DNA from: Polaribacter pacificus
GTDB taxonomy: Bacteria; Bacteroidota; Bacteroidia; Flavobacteriales; Flavobacteriaceae
Assembly (NCBI RefSeq): GCF_038024035.1
Contig: NZ_CP150664.1
Span: 558,001 to 622,000, forward strand
Direction: 5' to 3'
DNA length: 64,000 nucleotides
Part shown: positions 41,169 through 47,496 of the stretch, piece by piece
Numbering within the stretch: position 1 is the stretch's first letter
Layout: each line of letters starts with the position of its first letter
Translations under genes and position numbers: made by a program
The notes under the pieces: model-generated
The model's input: the letters and a program-made list of their open reading frames with translations, nothing else
Databases searched by the model: none
Told to the model about the DNA's origin: nothing

Positions 41169-42563
41169 ATGATTCAAAACGACACCATCATTGCTTTAGC
41201 CACACCTTCTGGTGTAGGAGCTATTGCTGTTATTCGTCTTTCAGGAGAAGATGCCATCAAATTAGTTGATGCAAATTTTAGTTCTGTACGTAAAAACAAG
41301 CGTTTATCTACTCAAAAATCACATAGTGTTCATTTAGGACATATTGTAAATAACGGGCTTGTTTTGGATGAAGTTTTGGTGACTGTTTTTAAAAACCCAA
41401 ACTCATATACCGGAGAAAATGTTGTAGAAATTTCTTGCCACGGTTCTTTGTTTATTCAGCAAGAGATTATTCAATTATTTTTGCAAAAAGGCTGTAGAAT
41501 GGCAGACAATGGTGAGTTTACCATGAGAGCCTTTTTAAATGGAAAAATGGACCTGAGCCAGGCCGAAGCCGTTGCAGATGTAATTGCATCAAATTCGGCT
41601 GCTAGCCATCAAATGGCCATCCAACAGATGCGCGGTGGGATTACCAATGAATTAAAAGAACTGCGTGCTCAACTGTTAGATTTTGCCGCGCTAATTGAAT
41701 TGGAACTAGATTTTTCTGGTGAGGATGTTGAGTTTGCCGATCGCACCAAATTTAAAGAGTTGGTTTCAAAAATCACTACAGTCTTAAAGCGCTTGATTGA
41801 TTCTTTTGCTTTTGGAAATGCTATGAAAAACGGTATTCCCGTTGCCATTATAGGTGAGCCAAATGTTGGGAAATCAACCTTATTAAACACACTTTTAAAC
41901 GAAGAAAAAGCCATTGTTTCTGATATTGCAGGTACTACTCGGGATGCCATTGAAGACGAAATTATTATAGAAGGTGTCGCTTTTCGCTTTATTGATACAG
42001 CTGGTATTAGAGATACCACAGATGTGGTAGAGAGCATCGGGATTAAAAAAACCTATGAAAAAGCAGCAAACGCGCAGTTGATTATTTACTTAATCGATGC
42101 TAATAAATTTTCAGAAGTAAGTGATATTATAATACAAGAAATTAACACCATTAAAGAGCGCTTTCCTAGCAAACGTTTACTGGTTATTGCCAATAAAGTT
42201 GACACACTCTCTTGTCATGATGCTGCTGTTTTAGAATCAGAAATAGAAGATGTAATTTTACTTTCTGCAAAACAAAAAACTGGTGTTGATGAATTAAAAT
42301 CAGCCTTAACCTCATTGGTAAACACTGGTGCATTAAGCAATAATGAAACCATCGTTACCAACTCTCGACATTTTGAAGCCTTAAACAATGCGCTGGTTGC
42401 CATAAGATCTGTACAAGAAGGTATTGATTTGGGTATTTCTACCGATTTGTTTTCTATCGATATTAGAGAATGTTTACGTCATCTCGGAAACATTACTGGT
42501 GAATACGACGTAGACAAAGACATCTTAGGTCATATATTCTCAAATTTTTGTATCGGTAAATAA
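41169..42563 (+). CDS. mnmE: tRNA modification GTPase MnmE
   Basis: 464 residues. The N-terminal tetrahydrofolate-binding domain (MIQNDTIIALATPSGVGAIAVIRLSG), helical domain and GTPase domain are in order: G1 GEPNVGKSTLLN (about 228-239), G2/G3 AGTTRDAIED and DTAGIRDT, G4 NKVD. The C-terminal CIGK motif (Cys about 461) is intact. With MnmG it forms the 5-carboxymethylaminomethyl group on U34 of certain tRNAs. The N-terminal residues fit the family exactly, so the start is secure despite the very short leader. Confidence 0.97.
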   Translation: MIQNDTIIALATPSGVGAIAVIRLSGEDAIKLVDANFSSVRKNKRLSTQKSHSVHLGHIVNNGLVLDEVLVTVFKNPNSYTGENVVEISCHGSLFIQQEIIQLFLQKGCRMADNGEFTMRAFLNGKMDLSQAEAVADVIASNSAASHQMAIQQMRGGITNELKELRAQLLDFAALIELELDFSGEDVEFADRTKFKELVSKITTVLKRLIDSFAFGNAMKNGIPVAIIGEPNVGKSTLLNTLLNEEKAIVSDIAGTTRDAIEDEIIIEGVAFRFIDTAGIRDTTDVVESIGIKKTYEKAANAQLIIYLIDANKFSEVSDIIIQEINTIKERFPSKRLLVIANKVDTLSCHDAAVLESEIEDVILLSAKQKTGVDELKSALTSLVNTGALSNNETIVTNSRHFEALNNALVAIRSVQEGIDLGISTDLFSIDIRECLRHLGNITGEYDVDKDILGHIFSNFCIGK

Positions 42564-42719
42564 GTATAGCTGTTTAACTCCTGTAAATAATTGTAACTCT
42601 TTAAAACAATTAATTAAAAACAAAAGAGAGTCTTTCTTTCATTAAATAAAGGGTTCCTTGAGAAAGTTATGCTTTAGCTTAAAGGTTGTGGAAGCTTAAA
42701 AAAATTTAATAAACAACTT

Positions 42720-42765
42720 TAAGGAAATTACCTATTGGCTACTTTGTAAAACAGGTCTACATTTA
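42720..42765 (+). promoter_or_regulatory. Degenerate copy of the dyad promoter (site 0)
   Basis: TAAGGAAATTACCTA (42720-42734) keeps the left half of the dyad and loses part of the right. TACATTTA (42758-42765) follows at exactly the same 38-bp offset as the three better copies. No C-rich unit or terminator follows directly; transcription would run into the first RNA unit. Confidence 0.45.
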
Positions 42766-42802
42766 CACAAGTAGATTATTAAGTATTTAGTTAACTACTA
42801 AT

Positions 42803-42848
42803 TAAGGAAATTGCTTATTATATTGTAAACCAATTAAATATACCTTTA
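42803..42848 (+). promoter_or_regulatory. Dyad promoter of RNA unit 1 (site 1)
   Basis: Dyad TAAGGA-AAT-TGCTTA (42803-42817, one arm mismatch), then TACCTTTA (42841-42848) 38 bp from dyad start to box start. The dyad centre is near -42 relative to the predicted transcription start, a class II activator position. Confidence 0.65.
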
Positions 42849-42851
42849 TAA

Positions 42852-42956
42852 AAAATTAATCCCCCTTTTAAATCATTTAATCCCCCTTAAATTATTTAAT
42901 CCATTTTATTTAACCAAAAGCTAAACTTCCCCCCAAGTTTAGCTTTTTGTTTTTTA
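42852..42956 (+). ncRNA. Candidate small RNA 1, C-rich with hairpin terminator
   Basis: Predicted transcript of about 105 nt. It has no open reading frame. The 5' part is A/U-rich with TTAATCCCCC (42856-42865), TTTAATCCCCC (42877-42887) and TTTAATCC, all predicted unpaired. The 3' end is a 13-bp hairpin (42916-42928 with 42935-42947) with a loop of six C, then a T-rich tail. A second, diverged copy follows 240 bp downstream, preserving promoter, C-rich elements and hairpin while the sequence between is different; this argues for selection at RNA level. No known RNA family is recognised. Confidence 0.6.
42916..42956 (+). terminator. Hairpin terminator of RNA unit 1
   Basis: A 13-bp perfect stem AAAAGCTAAACTT / AAGTTTAGCTTTT with a CCCCCC loop, followed by TGTTTTTT. 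The T-rich side is on the plus strand. Confidence 0.85.
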
Positions 42957-43042
42957 AGAAGTTCTGATAAAAAAATACCTTACATAAGTATTAGTATCCT
43001 ATACTTTTAAAAGTTGGGGTAGAAAGGATAAAAAAAACGAAT

Positions 43043-43088
43043 TAAGAATATTGCTTATTGTCTGGTTAACCAATTGGATATATCTTTA
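43043..43088 (+). promoter_or_regulatory. Dyad promoter of RNA unit 2 (site 2)
   Basis: Dyad TAAGAA-TAT-TGCTTA (43043-43057, one mismatch), TTG at 43058-43060, 20 bp, then TATCTTTA (43081-43088), 38 bp after dyad start. It shares ACCAATT between dyad and -7 box with site 1. Confidence 0.65.
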
Positions 43089-43091
43089 TAA

Positions 43092-43182
43092 AAAAATTAA
43101 TCCCCCAATAAACTTTTTAATCCCCTAAAGTATTTAATCAAAAGCTAAACTTCCCCCTAGGTTTAGCTTTTTGTTTTTTTAA
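43092..43182 (+). ncRNA. Candidate small RNA 2, diverged copy of RNA 1
   Basis: Predicted transcript of about 90 nt, non-coding. It repeats the plan of unit 1: TTAATCCCCCAAT (43098-43110), TTTTTAATCCCC, TTTAATC, then a hairpin (43140-43150 with 43161-43171) with a C5-containing loop and a T tail. Relative to unit 1, the C-rich boxes and the stem are kept, while the A/U spacers are changed and 15 bp shorter. It probably acts redundantly with unit 1. Confidence 0.6.
43140..43180 (+). terminator. Hairpin terminator of RNA unit 2
   Basis: Stem AAAAGCTAAAC / GTTTAGCTTTT with a 10-nt loop containing CCCCC, followed by TTGTTTTTTT. Confidence 0.83.
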
Positions 43183-43296
43183 GAAAAATATCTATATCAG
43201 ATTATTAAAATCACTAAAAGATAAGCGTTTTATAAAATGTTTTATCAGTAAGACAGGTAAATGAATTTTAGGAAGTTTCTATAACATAGATAGACT

Positions 43297-43339
43297 AAAA
43301 AAAGGAACGAAATACATTAAACAGTGGTGTTCTTTTTTT
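43297..43339 (-). terminator. Weak terminator-like hairpin after the receiver gene
   Basis: On the minus strand an A-run followed by GAAC pairs with GTTC and a T-run across a loop of about 18 nt. The GC content of the stem is low, so this is tentative. Confidence 0.35.
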
Positions 43340-43762
43340 TTAGCAAGGAGACAATGCAGAATTTAATTCAAAATTCTCAATAGTTTTCATTAACAAATCA
43401 AAATCTCTTGATTTGTCGAAAAAAGCACAAGCTCCATTTTTTAAACACAAATTTTTTAATTCTTTGTTTATTGAGAAAATCAGAATTCGAGAGTTGATAT
43501 TCTTTTCTCTGATCCATCGAAGTAGCTGGATGCCATTTCCATCAGGTAGGTTTAAATCCAAAACAATAATTTCTGAATAAACTTTTTCAATGACATCTGT
43601 AGCTTCCTTTAAGGTACTGGCCAAATGAATAGTTGAAACAGAAGGTATTTTCTTAATCCTAGAAAATAGTTTTTCACGGATTCTACTATCATCTTCTACA
43701 ATCAAAAGGTTGCTGATGATATTATTGTTGTTGTTGTTGTTGTTGTTGTTGTTTGTTTGCAA
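43340..43762 (-). CDS. Stand-alone receiver (CheY-like) protein with an N-terminal Asn run
   Basis: 140 residues. After MQT come 11 Asn, then a complete receiver domain (about 18-135): acidic pair in LLIVEDDSR, phospho-acceptor Asp in IIVLDLNLPDGNG, Ser in ILIFSINKE and Lys in CAFFDKSRD. No output domain follows. The only usable start in frame is TTG at 43762 (no ATG from the predicted transcription start onward). Its promoter has the same dyad and -7 layout as the two RNA units. A phosphate sink or connector role in the adjacent two-component system is inferred. Confidence 0.85.
   Translation of the reverse strand: MQTNNNNNNNNNNNIISNLLIVEDDSRIREKLFSRIKKIPSVSTIHLASTLKEATDVIEKVYSEIIVLDLNLPDGNGIQLLRWIREKNINSRILIFSINKELKNLCLKNGACAFFDKSRDFDLLMKTIENFELNSALSPC
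43727..43753 (-). repeat. (AAC)9 coding microsatellite at the start of the receiver gene
   Basis: Nine perfect AAC codons (then AAT AAT) lie four codons after the TTG start. Slippage would change Asn number without a frameshift. CA-rich unstructured sequence directly after a start codon is known to raise translation in bacteria, so length could tune expression. Confidence 0.95.
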
Positions 43763-43795
43763 AAAATTAAATTTTAAGCTGTTAAAATACTGAGG

Positions 43796-43841
43796 TAAAG
43801 CTAGGCAATAAGAATTGAGTAAAAAATAAGCAATATGCTTA
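43796..43841 (-). promoter_or_regulatory. Dyad promoter of the receiver gene (site 3)
   Basis: The best dyad of the set, a perfect TAAGCA-TAT-TGCTTA (43841-43827 on the minus strand), with TAGCTTTA (43803-43796) at the same 38-bp offset. The predicted leader is about 30 nt. The site is between the two response-regulator genes. Confidence 0.68.
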
Positions 43842-43878
43842 ATTGTTTAACTTATTTATCTGAAAATCAAACAAAAAA

Positions 43879-44535
43879 CTAAAAGTCTTCTAAGGATGTT
43901 AAGCCTTCACGAATGGCATACTTGGTTAACTCTGGAATGGTAAAAAGGTCTAGCTTTTTCATGATGTTGTTTCTGTGAACATCAACTGTCTTTGAACTTA
44001 AAAACAACAACTCCCCTATTTCTTTTGAAGATTTTCCTTCTGCAAGCAGTTGCAAAACTTCCGTCTCTCTAGAACTTAGATTTTTGTCATCCAAGCCATC
44101 TGATTCTTTTAATAAGGATAAAAATTCTTGATTGATGTTTTTGGACAAGTACTTTTTGTTTCGCATAACACTATCAATAGCTGTTATCAACTCACTAGCG
44201 TCACCATCTTTTAATAAATAACCATAGGCACCCGCATTAAACATGCTCTGGATATACTGTTTGTTGGCATGCATAGAAAGACCAATAATTTTAATTGAGG
44301 GGTGTGACTTGCAAATCTGTTTTGCAGATTCAATACCATTTAATCCAGACATTGCCACATCCATAACAACCACATCAGGGTTTAGTTTTACGCATTTTTT
44401 TATAGCTTCTCTACCATCAGAAGCCTCTCCAACTATATTTAAATGACTCTTCTGCTCAATAAGACTTCTTAGCCCATCGCGAAGCATTTGATGATCATCA
44501 ACTAATAATATTTTTATTTCTTTTCCAAAACTCAT
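43879..44535 (-). CDS. NarL/LuxR-family response regulator
   Basis: 218 residues. The receiver domain (about 6-125) has LLVDDHQMLRDGL, phospho-acceptor Asp in VVVMDVAMSGLNG (about 59), Ser in IIGLSMHAN and Lys in GYLLKDGDAS. The LuxR-type HTH (about 148-205) reads LSSRETEVLQLLAEGKSSKEIGELL then SSKTVDVHRNNIMKKL. Its start overlaps the kinase stop as TAATG (when the kinase is read in the restored frame), showing translational coupling. It is the obvious candidate to bind the nearby palindromic sites, by position and protein class. Confidence 0.95.
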   Translation of the reverse strand: MSFGKEIKILLVDDHQMLRDGLRSLIEQKSHLNIVGEASDGREAIKKCVKLNPDVVVMDVAMSGLNGIESAKQICKSHPSIKIIGLSMHANKQYIQSMFNAGAYGYLLKDGDASELITAIDSVMRNKKYLSKNINQEFLSLLKESDGLDDKNLSSRETEVLQLLAEGKSSKEIGELLFLSSKTVDVHRNNIMKKLDLFTIPELTKYAIREGLTSLEDF

Positions 44536-47496
44536 TAAGATAAAGGTACAAAAAAGTTTACAGTTGTCCCAACATTAATTTCTGATACAATGCTAAATTT
44601 ACCATTCATGTTCTGAATTCTTTCTTTTACTGCAAACAAACCAAATCCAGAATTGGTGTGATTGCTTGGGTTTTGCAGTTTTTTGGTTTCAAAGCCCCCC
44701 CCCATTGTCCATTATATTGATAGAAACACCAGTTTTATCTTTGTCAAAATCTATAGTAACCAAAGATGCATTTGCATATTTTATAGTGTTGGTTACCACC
44801 TCTTGTATACATCTAAAAATTAAAATTGCATTAATATCACTTAGTTTTATTGATGATACATTGCTGTGAAACTTAACTTTAATATTGTATTTTTCTTCAA
44901 TTTCATCAGTGTACCAATACAAGGTATCAATAATCCCTAACTGATACAATACAGGAGGCGAGAGCTCGTACGTAATTTTACGACTATTGTCAAGAGCCTC
45001 AGAAATATGGTTTTTTACAAATTCTAAATCTTGATGAATGCTTTCTAACCCTGGTCTTTTTTCTAATTCAGTTATTCTCATTTTCGAGATAACCAAAGAT
45101 TGACTTAGATGGTCGTGAATATTAGCTGCAATTTGTTTTTTCTGATTTTCTTCTATTAATGAAATTTCTGTCGTTAATTTTTGTAGTGACAGTTGGTAAT
45201 CTTCAATCACTTTTTTTGCTGACATCCATTGGCTAATATCTCTACTGGTTGTTGCAAAAGCAACCACAACGCCTTCTTTAAAAATAGGATTTCCTAAAGA
45301 CTCAAACCATATATAATTACCAGATTTATGTCTTACTCTATAACTCAGAGCACCTACTTTAGTGCCGTTTTTAACCATATCACCAAAAGCATCTACTAAA
45401 ATATGCAAGTCTTCTGGATGAACAACCACATCTATTTTTTTATCAATTAGATCAATTTGATCATAGCCCATCAAATAACTTAAGGATGGACTTAAATACC
45501 TAAATGAAGTATCTGGGTTGTGTAGACAAATTAAATCACTCGTATTGTCAGCCAACAATCGATACATATCCTCTGATTTTTGGGCCAGCTCTAGATTTGT
45601 TTTATGCTCTGTAATATCTTGTAGAACACCTCTTCTGCCAATAAACTCACCTTGATCATTGTAGATGGCTTTTCCCATGTTTCTAATCCACAATTTTTCA
45701 TTCTTTAAGTTGACTAGCTGCAATTCTAAATCATACGGAATTCCTTTTGTGATACAATCATGAGCAGCTTTACTTAGCCTCTCCATAGATTCTTCATCAA
45801 AAATAGTAAGTATGGTTTCTAAGTCTGGAGCACCATTTTCTGGTGTGGTTCCGTAGATTTGATAAACAACATCTGACCAAGTAACTTTGTCAGTGATTGC
45901 ATCGTGCTCCCAATAGCCAACTTTTGCCATTAATCCTGCCTGCCTTAATGAAAGTTCACTCTTCTCTAACAATTCTAAGGAAGCCTGGATATTCTTTTTA
46001 GAAATTTCTAGTTCAAATTGTGATTTTTTTAAGTTACTAATATCCTGCAACACACCTCTTCTACCAATAACGTTTTGCTCATTATTAAAAATTGGCTCAG
46101 CTATAATTCGAACCCACAGATGGTTTTTCTTAAAATTAATCAGCTCGAGTTCTAATTCAAACGGAATGCCTTTAGATACTAATTCAAAAGAAGCTTTATT
46201 CATTTTCTCTTTTGATTTTTCTGTTAAGAGCACCATCAACTCTTCTAAATTTGGAGCTTTTTGCCCATCATACCCAAGAATTTCAAACATTTGATCTGAC
46301 CAATACAATTTATTGGTTTCACCATTTAGTTCATAAGCACCAATCTTTGCTAGTTTACCAGCCTCTCTTAATAAAAACTCACTTCTTTGTACAGTCGTTA
46401 GATTAACCTCCAGTTCTTCTTTTGATTTTTTGAGCTCATTTTCAAACAATTTTAAATCTGTAATGTCTTGAACCACACCTCTCCTACCAATAATTTCTTT
46501 ATCATCATTATAGATGGGTATTGTCATTACTCGCACCCAGGTTGTAATTTCTTGGATCAATTCAAACTCAATATCAAATGGAACACCTTGCTTCATACAT
46601 TTTTCTGAAGCTTCTATTAATCTTTTATTGGTTTCTACAGTAATGATATTTGAGAGCTCTTTTAAAGGAGGTGGATTAGATTTGGGCAAACCGAAAATTT
46701 TATAAACCTGATCTGAGAAAAACCATTGATCACCATCATTTTGATATTCATAGGCCCCAATTTTAGAAATCTTACTAGCTTCGTTTAATAGAAACTCACT
46801 CATTTCTACCTTTTTCAAGGATTCTTTTAAAACTTTTTGAGAAAGTTTAAGTTCATCTTGAGAATTTTTTAATTGAGAAATATCTGTAAAAATAATACAT
46901 ACCCTAAATGGCTTGCTTTCTCCTGGTTTAAATTCTGGTATAGAATTTAAACTCAACCATGTATAGGTGTTTGTCTCTTGATTAAGCGCTCCCAAAATCC
47001 TATTATGTACAGGCTTACCAGTTTTAATTGCTTCAAATCCAGGATGATCTTCTGGTGAGAGACCAGAATTGTCTTCATAAACAGGTTTCCATTCATCCGA
47101 GTTAACAGAACTGCCAACCATCTCGGCTTCTGTAACACCTAAAATATTTAAAGAGGCTTGATTAACGGAAGTAATTATTCCTTCTGGATTTGCATAAGCT
47201 ATTCCATGAGACATATTATTAAACAAACTGTAATAACTGTTTTCATTCTCCTTGAGCTTTTTAAGCTGCTTTTCTACCAAAGAATCCCTTCGTTTTAAGA
47301 TAAAAAAAAGTGCTGTCGCTGTAATGAATACAAACCCAACTCCTATATAAGATTGAATTTCTTGCCACTGGGCTACTAAGATATTCTCTTGATAATAATA
47401 CTGTAAAATCCAATCAGAAATTACAATATACAAACAACTAATAATAAAATATCCAATGACAATAAACTTAGTGGACTTCTTTATATATTTTTTCAT
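44535..47496 (-). CDS. Multi-PAS membrane histidine kinase (NarX/HPK7 type), frame broken at a G9 tract
   Basis: Two N-terminal membrane helices (about 12-32, 48-67) and five PAS domains: PAS1 (about 95-215), three closely similar PAS/PAC units (about 235-350, 370-487, 505-622, each ending IGRRGV-QDI) and PAS5 (about 640-760). Then come a HisKA_3 dimerisation helix with His in AANIHDHLSQSLVISKMRI and a HATPase domain. As sequenced, translation ends at NGGGL (stop at 44689-44691), losing the G2 box. With one G fewer in the tract at 44695-44703, the frame continues through SGFGLFAVKERIQNMNGKF to VPLS and stops at 44535, sharing one base with the regulator ATG. The restored length is about 987 residues. 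Confidence 0.88.
44695..44703 (-). repeat. G9 homopolymer inside the kinase ATPase domain
   Basis: Nine G on the coding strand encode the G1 box NGGG. Eight G would keep the conserved frame. Tracts of this length are classical contingency-locus sites for slipped-strand on/off switching, and are also prone to sequencing error. Confidence 0.9.

Follow-up and report, generated by a model that had tools for sequence, protein, structure and literature searches.

Does the stretch around positions 42720 to 43841 of the Polaribacter pacificus DNA analysed here (contig NZ_CP150664.1, positions 558,001 to 622,000; these 64,000 nucleotides are called the window) encode a regulatory RNA circuit and, if so, of which kind? 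Two tandem C-rich non-coding units and a receiver gene stand here behind promoters of one design, next to a NarL-type two-component system, and an earlier note on this DNA had proposed a Gac/Rsm-like circuit. The comparisons described below, in which 78 Polaribacter genomes were searched, point to a two-component regulon with RNA decoys as the most likely mechanism, to which we give about an even chance.

The window contains four dyad promoters, distributed over both strands, in each of which a TANNTTTA box starts exactly 38 bp from the start of the dyad; coordinates and sequences were rechecked and found to be correct as first described.

42720..42734, plus strand: dyad 1, TAAGGAAATTACCTA, upstream tandem promoter of RNA 1, of the form TAAG-N7-CCTA, the commonest in the regulon
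42758..42765, plus strand: -7 box TACATTTA of promoter 1, 38 bp from dyad start
42803..42817, plus strand: dyad 2, TAAGGAAATTGCTTA, promoter of RNA 1
42841..42848, plus strand: -7 box TACCTTTA of promoter 2, 38 bp from dyad start
43043..43057, plus strand: dyad 3, TAAGAATATTGCTTA, promoter of RNA 2
43081..43088, plus strand: -7 box TATCTTTA of promoter 3, 38 bp from dyad start
43827..43841, minus strand: dyad 4, TAAGCATATTGCTTA, promoter of the receiver gene
43796..43803, minus strand: -7 box TAGCTTTA of the receiver promoter, 38 bp from dyad start

Dyad 1 had been called degenerate, but TAAG-N7-CCTA is in fact the commoner form (C in 63% and T in 37% of 108 sites at the variable position) and, therefore, the 42720 site makes a good third promoter, which stands in tandem with RNA 1's own. 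Flavobacterial -7 boxes of the class TAnnTTTG are located at -12 to -5, according to the part of PMC9723704 that was available; with the box at this place the dyad would cover about -50 to -36 and be centred near -43, which is an activator position.

The pattern TAAGNANNNYNCYTA-N23-TANNTTTR matched five times in the genome of P. pacificus and its reversed form not at all; across the 78 Polaribacter genomes, dyad-N23-TANNTTTR gave 87 matches in 27 genomes against 3 for the reversed pattern, so the spacing is non-random. Since some of the loci compared had been fetched by this pattern (L091-L124, of which L116 and L124 by the dyad alone), the spacing was measured again on sequence chosen by the regulator, i.e. 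the window and 33 loci fetched solely because they hold that gene (512 kb). There, 116 dyad cores were found versus 15 reversed cores, and a box was present at 38 bp for 61 of the 116 dyads, with at most 5 at every other distance from 16 to 65 bp.

The candidate for the protein that reads these dyads is encoded next to them, in a layout typical of NarL/FixJ-type two-component systems with a receiver and a GerE helix-turn-helix domain beside a HisKA_3 kinase (Pfam):

43879..44535, minus strand: NarL-type response regulator (receiver and GerE), predicted dyad binder (Pfam; co-occurrence with dyads)
44689..47496, minus strand: multi-PAS histidine kinase, main frame (Pfam PAS, HisKA_3)
44535..44705, minus strand: C-terminal part of the kinase, separated from the main frame by a frame change at a run of nine C
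43340..43762, minus strand: stand-alone receiver protein, 140 amino acids from a TTG start, with a poly-Asn tract (Pfam Response_reg, 57 bits)

A close relative of the window regulator (E up to 1e-60) is encoded in 26 of the 78 genomes. The dyad-box was present in 25 of these 26 and in 2 of the 52 regulator-negative genomes (Fisher p = 5e-17, which overstates independence because the genomes are related and the p-value is not corrected for phylogeny); the two were G088, which is 76% complete, and G078, which has one atypical site. This co-occurrence and the activator position of the dyads bear out the link between regulator and dyads drawn in the earlier note, and a regulator-dyad regulon in Polaribacter, with the regulator as predicted binder, is well supported. 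Receiver-like genes were seen by eye at the same position in several relatives. In Confluentibacter and one Bacteroidales genome, regulators more distantly related to that of the window are accompanied by a one-mismatch dyad-box before a receiver-like gene (again by eye), which suggests that the regulator-dyad-receiver link predates the RNAs.

In Confluentibacter and Yeosuana (L152 7740, L154 7731), a dyad-box lies downstream of regulator relatives and is followed by a short unit; with its terminator-like hairpin (z -2.9 and -2.1) but without C-runs, this unit may be a further small RNA that belongs to this regulator family. A second dyad-box locus of the P. pacificus genome (G000:C1:2318349-2318394, L115) precedes a 69-amino-acid open reading frame (ORF) that resembles the start of a receiver domain. 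At the start of the receiver gene in the window, an AAC repeat at about 43721-43756, encoding about 11 Asn, forms a microsatellite. The kinase frame (within 44535-47496, minus strand) is broken at the run of nine C at 44695-44703, near the C-terminal ATPase domain; in the window, the frame that runs up to the regulator start has 58 open codons, compared with 417 or more in 10 of 11 related loci. Possible reasons for the split are phase variation, slippage and a sequencing error.

The two units behind dyads 1 to 3 had been described as C-rich, non-coding and diverged duplicates of each other. Indeed, they align as such, their folds are far more stable than those of shuffled sequences (z -7.5 and -4.2), and neither has an ORF of its own of at least 20 amino acids: the only ones touching 42845-43185 encode 24 amino acids on the minus strand and 25 amino acids from a start at 43051, which precedes the 5' end predicted for RNA 2. 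Scores in the following list refer to the RNA covariance model R1; its training set comprised 30 of the 34 RNAs described below, so that matches in those genomes are by construction.

42853..42955, plus strand: predicted C-rich small RNA 1, its 5' end deduced from the box position; R1 match 60.9 bits (training-set member)
42861..42865, plus strand: C-box 1 of RNA 1, unpaired
42882..42886, plus strand: C-box 2 of RNA 1, unpaired
42916..42947, plus strand: terminator hairpin of RNA 1, loop CCCCCC at 42929-42934
43093..43179, plus strand: predicted C-rich small RNA 2, 5' end inferred; R1 match 69.8 bits (training-set member)
43102-43106 and 43122-43125, plus strand: C-boxes of RNA 2, with a loop C-run at 43153-43157
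43140..43171, plus strand: terminator hairpin of RNA 2

Downstream of dyad promoters, 34 such units were recovered across the relatives (46 hairpin rows minus 12 removed by hand, two of which, L117 3571 and L118 2951, could be real RNAs); their arrays have up to four members (L092; three in L091). Together they contain 65 C-runs of at least four C versus a mean of 1.95 in composition-matched shuffles (33-fold; maximum of 6 in 200), and the mean unpaired probability of these runs is 0.96 compared with 0.40 elsewhere. A C-run is located 5' of the hairpin in 31 of the 34 RNAs, at a distance of 12-16 nt in 25 of the 31, and inside the hairpin in 27. Over 30 aligned RNAs, 97% of the hairpin cells were paired and double changes occurred at 5 of 11 pairs; none of 500 shuffles reached the paired fraction, the double changes or the covariation score, and one reached the number of pair types. 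The C-run excess and the compensatory changes agree with the earlier claim that C-boxes and terminator hairpin are conserved.

R1 matched with at least 49 bits in 19 of the 78 Polaribacter genomes, a line that was set after the gap below it had been seen (at E up to 0.01, 49 of 78 genomes matched). All 19 are among the 26 regulator-positive genomes and none among the 52 negative ones; since the positives include training sequences, the informative part is the zero. A family-wide reading of the regulatory RNA system in Flavobacteriaceae suggested before was rejected: among 249 genomes of the family (235 genera), no match outside Polaribacter was better than E = 1e-5 under strict filters that a diverged RNA could escape. 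Genomes with any match numbered 39, and the 37 non-Polaribacter ones, all at E = 1e-4 to 1e-2, were taken as chance. Judged by these searches, the C-rich RNAs are found only in Polaribacter. A nucleotide similarity search with the RNA in 59 genomes gave mostly AT-rich noise, but a few matches beside the regulator were the first lead. Rfam returned three weak matches for 42500-43900, none at the curated score; the best was NrrF with 27 versus 60 bits on the opposite strand, and a match to CrcZ was rejected since it scored 15.8 against a cut-off of 95 bits and sits on the AAC repeat of the receiver gene. In the results listed by searches of open-licence papers, no account of these RNAs was seen, which does not prove that there is none.

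What else might the regulator control? In the relatives, dyad-box promoters also precede mRNAs of several families of short proteins: family X (about 170 amino acids, QNNIEISLQQD, 36-48% identity to the member in the P. pacificus genome), family Y (about 143 amino acids, AQDLAMNT), family Z (71-87 amino acids, hydrophobic stretches) and a fourth, lipoprotein-like family of about 180 amino acids. Judging from their hydrophobic starts the proteins are probably exported; five members of these families gave nothing above cut-off in Pfam and NCBIfam. Of the 78 genomes, at least 11 have genes for such small, probably exported proteins behind a dyad-box, with CCCC(C) 3-7 nt before ATG.

Many of these mRNAs carry the C-box of the RNAs in front of their start codons. 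With internal Met codons near the start accepted if a C-run precedes, and with pattern-chosen and regulator-chosen loci mixed, 17 of the 38 ORFs that lie no more than 260 nt from a dyad-box had a run of at least four C ending 2-9 nt before ATG, versus 8 of 420 others (Fisher p = 6e-15), 7 of the 8 being family X members with upstream sites off the exact pattern; if these seven are excluded, the box remains in 1 of 413 other ORFs of the fetched loci. From the 48 ORFs listed after dyad-boxes (seven are copies in L093), 23 have such a run anywhere in the last 25 nt, counted unfiltered; CCCC(C) is located 3-7 nt before ATG in 20 of them and 12-19 nt in 3 (family Y), and one X gene has CCTCC at 4 nt. 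Since the C-box is 3-7 nt from ATG while the distance from -7 box to ATG varies from 30 to 102 nt in the boxed ORFs, the box appears to be placed for translation, not for transcription. This is where another phylum has its Shine-Dalgarno site. The P. pacificus genome itself has a C-box on an X-family gene (2130459) and on a lipoprotein-like gene (1360611; 25% identity to the member in L110, E = 1e-15).

The C-run was found in the same position in 6 of 38 regulator genes (L050, L058, L059, L136, L137, L138) and in none of 8 receivers, and a feedback of the RNAs on the regulator is possible. In L093 (3501-6851; G009:C1:1018000-1028000), eight tandem 71-amino-acid hydrophobic genes of family Z each have their own dyad-box and a C-box before ATG. 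Family Y leaders of L058 and L059 contain a C-box and then a minimal ATG-TAT-ATG-TAA or ATG-TAA frame ahead of the long ORF. In the P. pacificus genome, gene G000:C1:2034460 (L231), which we take to encode a GLPGLI-like exported protein, lacks the dyad-box pattern but carries CCCCC at 5 nt from its ATG.

How could these parts work together? The promoter design, the regulator link, the RNA architecture with its covariation and the shared box before ATG were obtained computationally; transcription, direct binding by the regulator, the existence and sign of a C-box factor and its titration are what we infer from them. In the decoy mechanism, the PAS kinase and the NarL-type regulator would act on the TAAG-N7-CYTA dyad centred near -43, and the regulator would activate the gene of its own stand-alone receiver, one to four C-rich small RNAs and exported-protein genes with CCCC(C) 3-7 nt before ATG. 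A factor, most probably a protein that binds the C-box and blocks initiation, would restrain the boxed mRNAs until the kinase fires and the multi-box RNAs titrate it. Since RNAs and mRNAs share the same-sense box, one common binder that is contested is suggested, rather than mutual pairing.

Several observations weigh against this mechanism. A known box-binding protein was not found: CsrA (PF02599, E up to 0.01) in none of 20 Polaribacter genomes, of which 16 have the system (control: 3 of 14 named genomes), Hfq (PF17209, E up to 0.001) in 0 of 26 (control: 5 of 14) and RRM-1 (PF00076, E up to 0.001) in 0 of 26 (control: 2 of 14, one of them Bacteroides). Only a single C-run is present in 8 of the 34 RNAs, which is weak for multivalent titration, and a strong RNA match is missing in 7 of the 26 regulator genomes. 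A C-run of four is absent from the last 25 nt of 25 of the 48 ORFs, some of which are receivers or dubious, and family Y is mostly without a close box (none in the last 25 nt, or at 12-19 nt or further). In the P. pacificus genome, a protein gene that combines the exact dyad-box with a C-box was not found, 2130459 and 1360611 being without an exact promoter match. Finally, CCCCC-N3-6-ATGARA occurs 104 times versus 61 in the control in genomes with dyads and 165 versus 100 in those without. This genome-wide count was rejected as a census of targets: a tRNA gene read antisense accounts for part of it, and it does not single out the system genomes, so that a broad set of targets is not shown.

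The main rival is antisense pairing as in LhrC, which we consider unlikely: multicopy RNAs induced by the regulator would pair through their C-rich boxes with G-rich initiation sites and repress these mRNAs, and the C-box of the mRNAs would have another role. LhrC of Listeria is the nearest antisense analogue: a multicopy family that needs the two-component system LisRK, exposes UCCC in loops or single strands and represses a surface-protein mRNA (PMC4132741, available in part). The C-boxes of the Polaribacter RNAs are equally unpaired. However, LhrC pairs with its target mRNA whereas the Polaribacter leaders share the box in the same sense, which antisense pairing does not predict. Moreover, GGGGG within 25 nt before ATGARA showed no excess (258 versus 336 in the control for regulator genomes, 807 versus 824 for the others), although a few specific targets could escape this count; in regulator genomes only, it was slightly rarer than in the reversed control (p = 0.013, 78 genomes). 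The G-rich site that such pairing usually targets is the Shine-Dalgarno sequence, and Flavobacterium psychrophilum does without it according to the accessible part of PMC9723704.

Less probable still is that the C-box is an unusual recruitment element for the ribosome or a ribosomal protein and that the RNAs, mimicking initiation sites without an ATG, compete for this contact. The box is found 3-7 nt before ATG in 20 ORFs, and the AT-rich stretches after the RNA boxes resemble those of the mRNAs by eye, but with 1 of 413 ORFs outside the regulon the box is too rare to be a general recruitment element. Titration of a third, G-rich RNA or of the transcription factor Rho, with no dedicated protein involved, is distinctly improbable: Rho prefers C-rich RNA and C-runs are present in both RNAs and leaders, but their placement relative to ATG favours initiation and speaks against termination. 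That the RNAs are functionless by-products of duplicated promoter-leaders in an ordinary regulon is the least probable of all, since these tandem duplicates do differ between species but their C-runs, 33 times as frequent as in shuffles, and their hairpin survive divergence with compensatory changes.

If the decoy mechanism is preferred, is it Gac/Rsm? In that system, several small RNAs with repeated unpaired motifs sequester a translational repressor, and a palindromic upstream site is involved (PMC2375449, PMC4005645, both in the parts available). Like Gac/Rsm of pseudomonads, the Polaribacter locus combines a two-component regulator, a palindromic upstream site and several RNAs with repeated unpaired motifs, and one motif is found in the small RNAs and at initiation sites (20 of 48 ORFs), which supports a similar way of working, not membership. 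Unlike in Gac/Rsm, the motif is CCCC(C) instead of GGA, the boxed mRNAs share the promoter of the RNAs, and the RNAs are found only in Polaribacter. Since CsrA, Hfq and RRM proteins were not found, the system is not Gac/Rsm itself. The regulator scored 168.9 bits against the UvrY/SirA/GacA model NF007018 (cut-off 280) and higher, 197.5 bits, against the MctR model, whose cut-off of 300 was missed, too. Of the Gac/Rsm-like circuit proposed in the earlier note, the logic is strengthened, as there are mRNAs of relatives that have the C-box before the start codon behind the same promoters, and the descent was rejected on account of CsrA and the GacA equivalog cut-off.

CrcZ is a decoy; it is under a two-component system and has CA motifs in common with its targets. 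It regulates Hfq in catabolite repression (PMC4063720, in the part available), but the CbrAB-CrcZ-Hfq/Crc system differs in its motif, and Hfq was not found in the 26 Polaribacter genomes. If the model is right, the circuit works like Gac/Rsm or CrcZ decoys; it fails the tests for membership in both. RbpB-FopS of Bacteroides is similar in that it is found in Bacteroidota and uses multicopy RNAs and control at the initiation region of outer-membrane genes; as far as the available part of PMC11697453 goes, FopS RNAs pair with mRNAs, and no RRM protein was found in Polaribacter. Rfp18 of F. psychrophilum, a small RNA that acts in trans, is flavobacterial like the Polaribacter RNAs; unlike them, it comes from transcriptome mapping and affects protease mRNAs, and the main text of PMC9723704 does not contain the term C-rich and, in the parts available, gives no link to a regulator. 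The CCCCC box common to small RNAs and mRNAs of these marine bacteria suggests a new way of controlling protein production by RNA decoys that evolved independently. More tentatively, at a little under even chances, it would be a separately evolved counterpart of Csr/Rsm, in which a C-box-binding translational repressor is titrated by multi-box RNAs under two-component control and the C-box mRNAs are transcribed through that regulator as well, so that an AND-like feed-forward switch would govern the exported proteins.

Post-transcriptional control has been little studied in Flavobacteriia, and the 38-bp dyad-box rule is a ready means of reading the regulon from any Polaribacter genome. The compact locus, with sensor, regulator and RNAs together and with boxed mRNAs nearby in relatives, offers a handle for a new RNA-binding factor. 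If the model is true, decoy RNAs would have arisen again around a different motif, and Polaribacter would provide a case in which initiation is gated without Shine-Dalgarno pairing.

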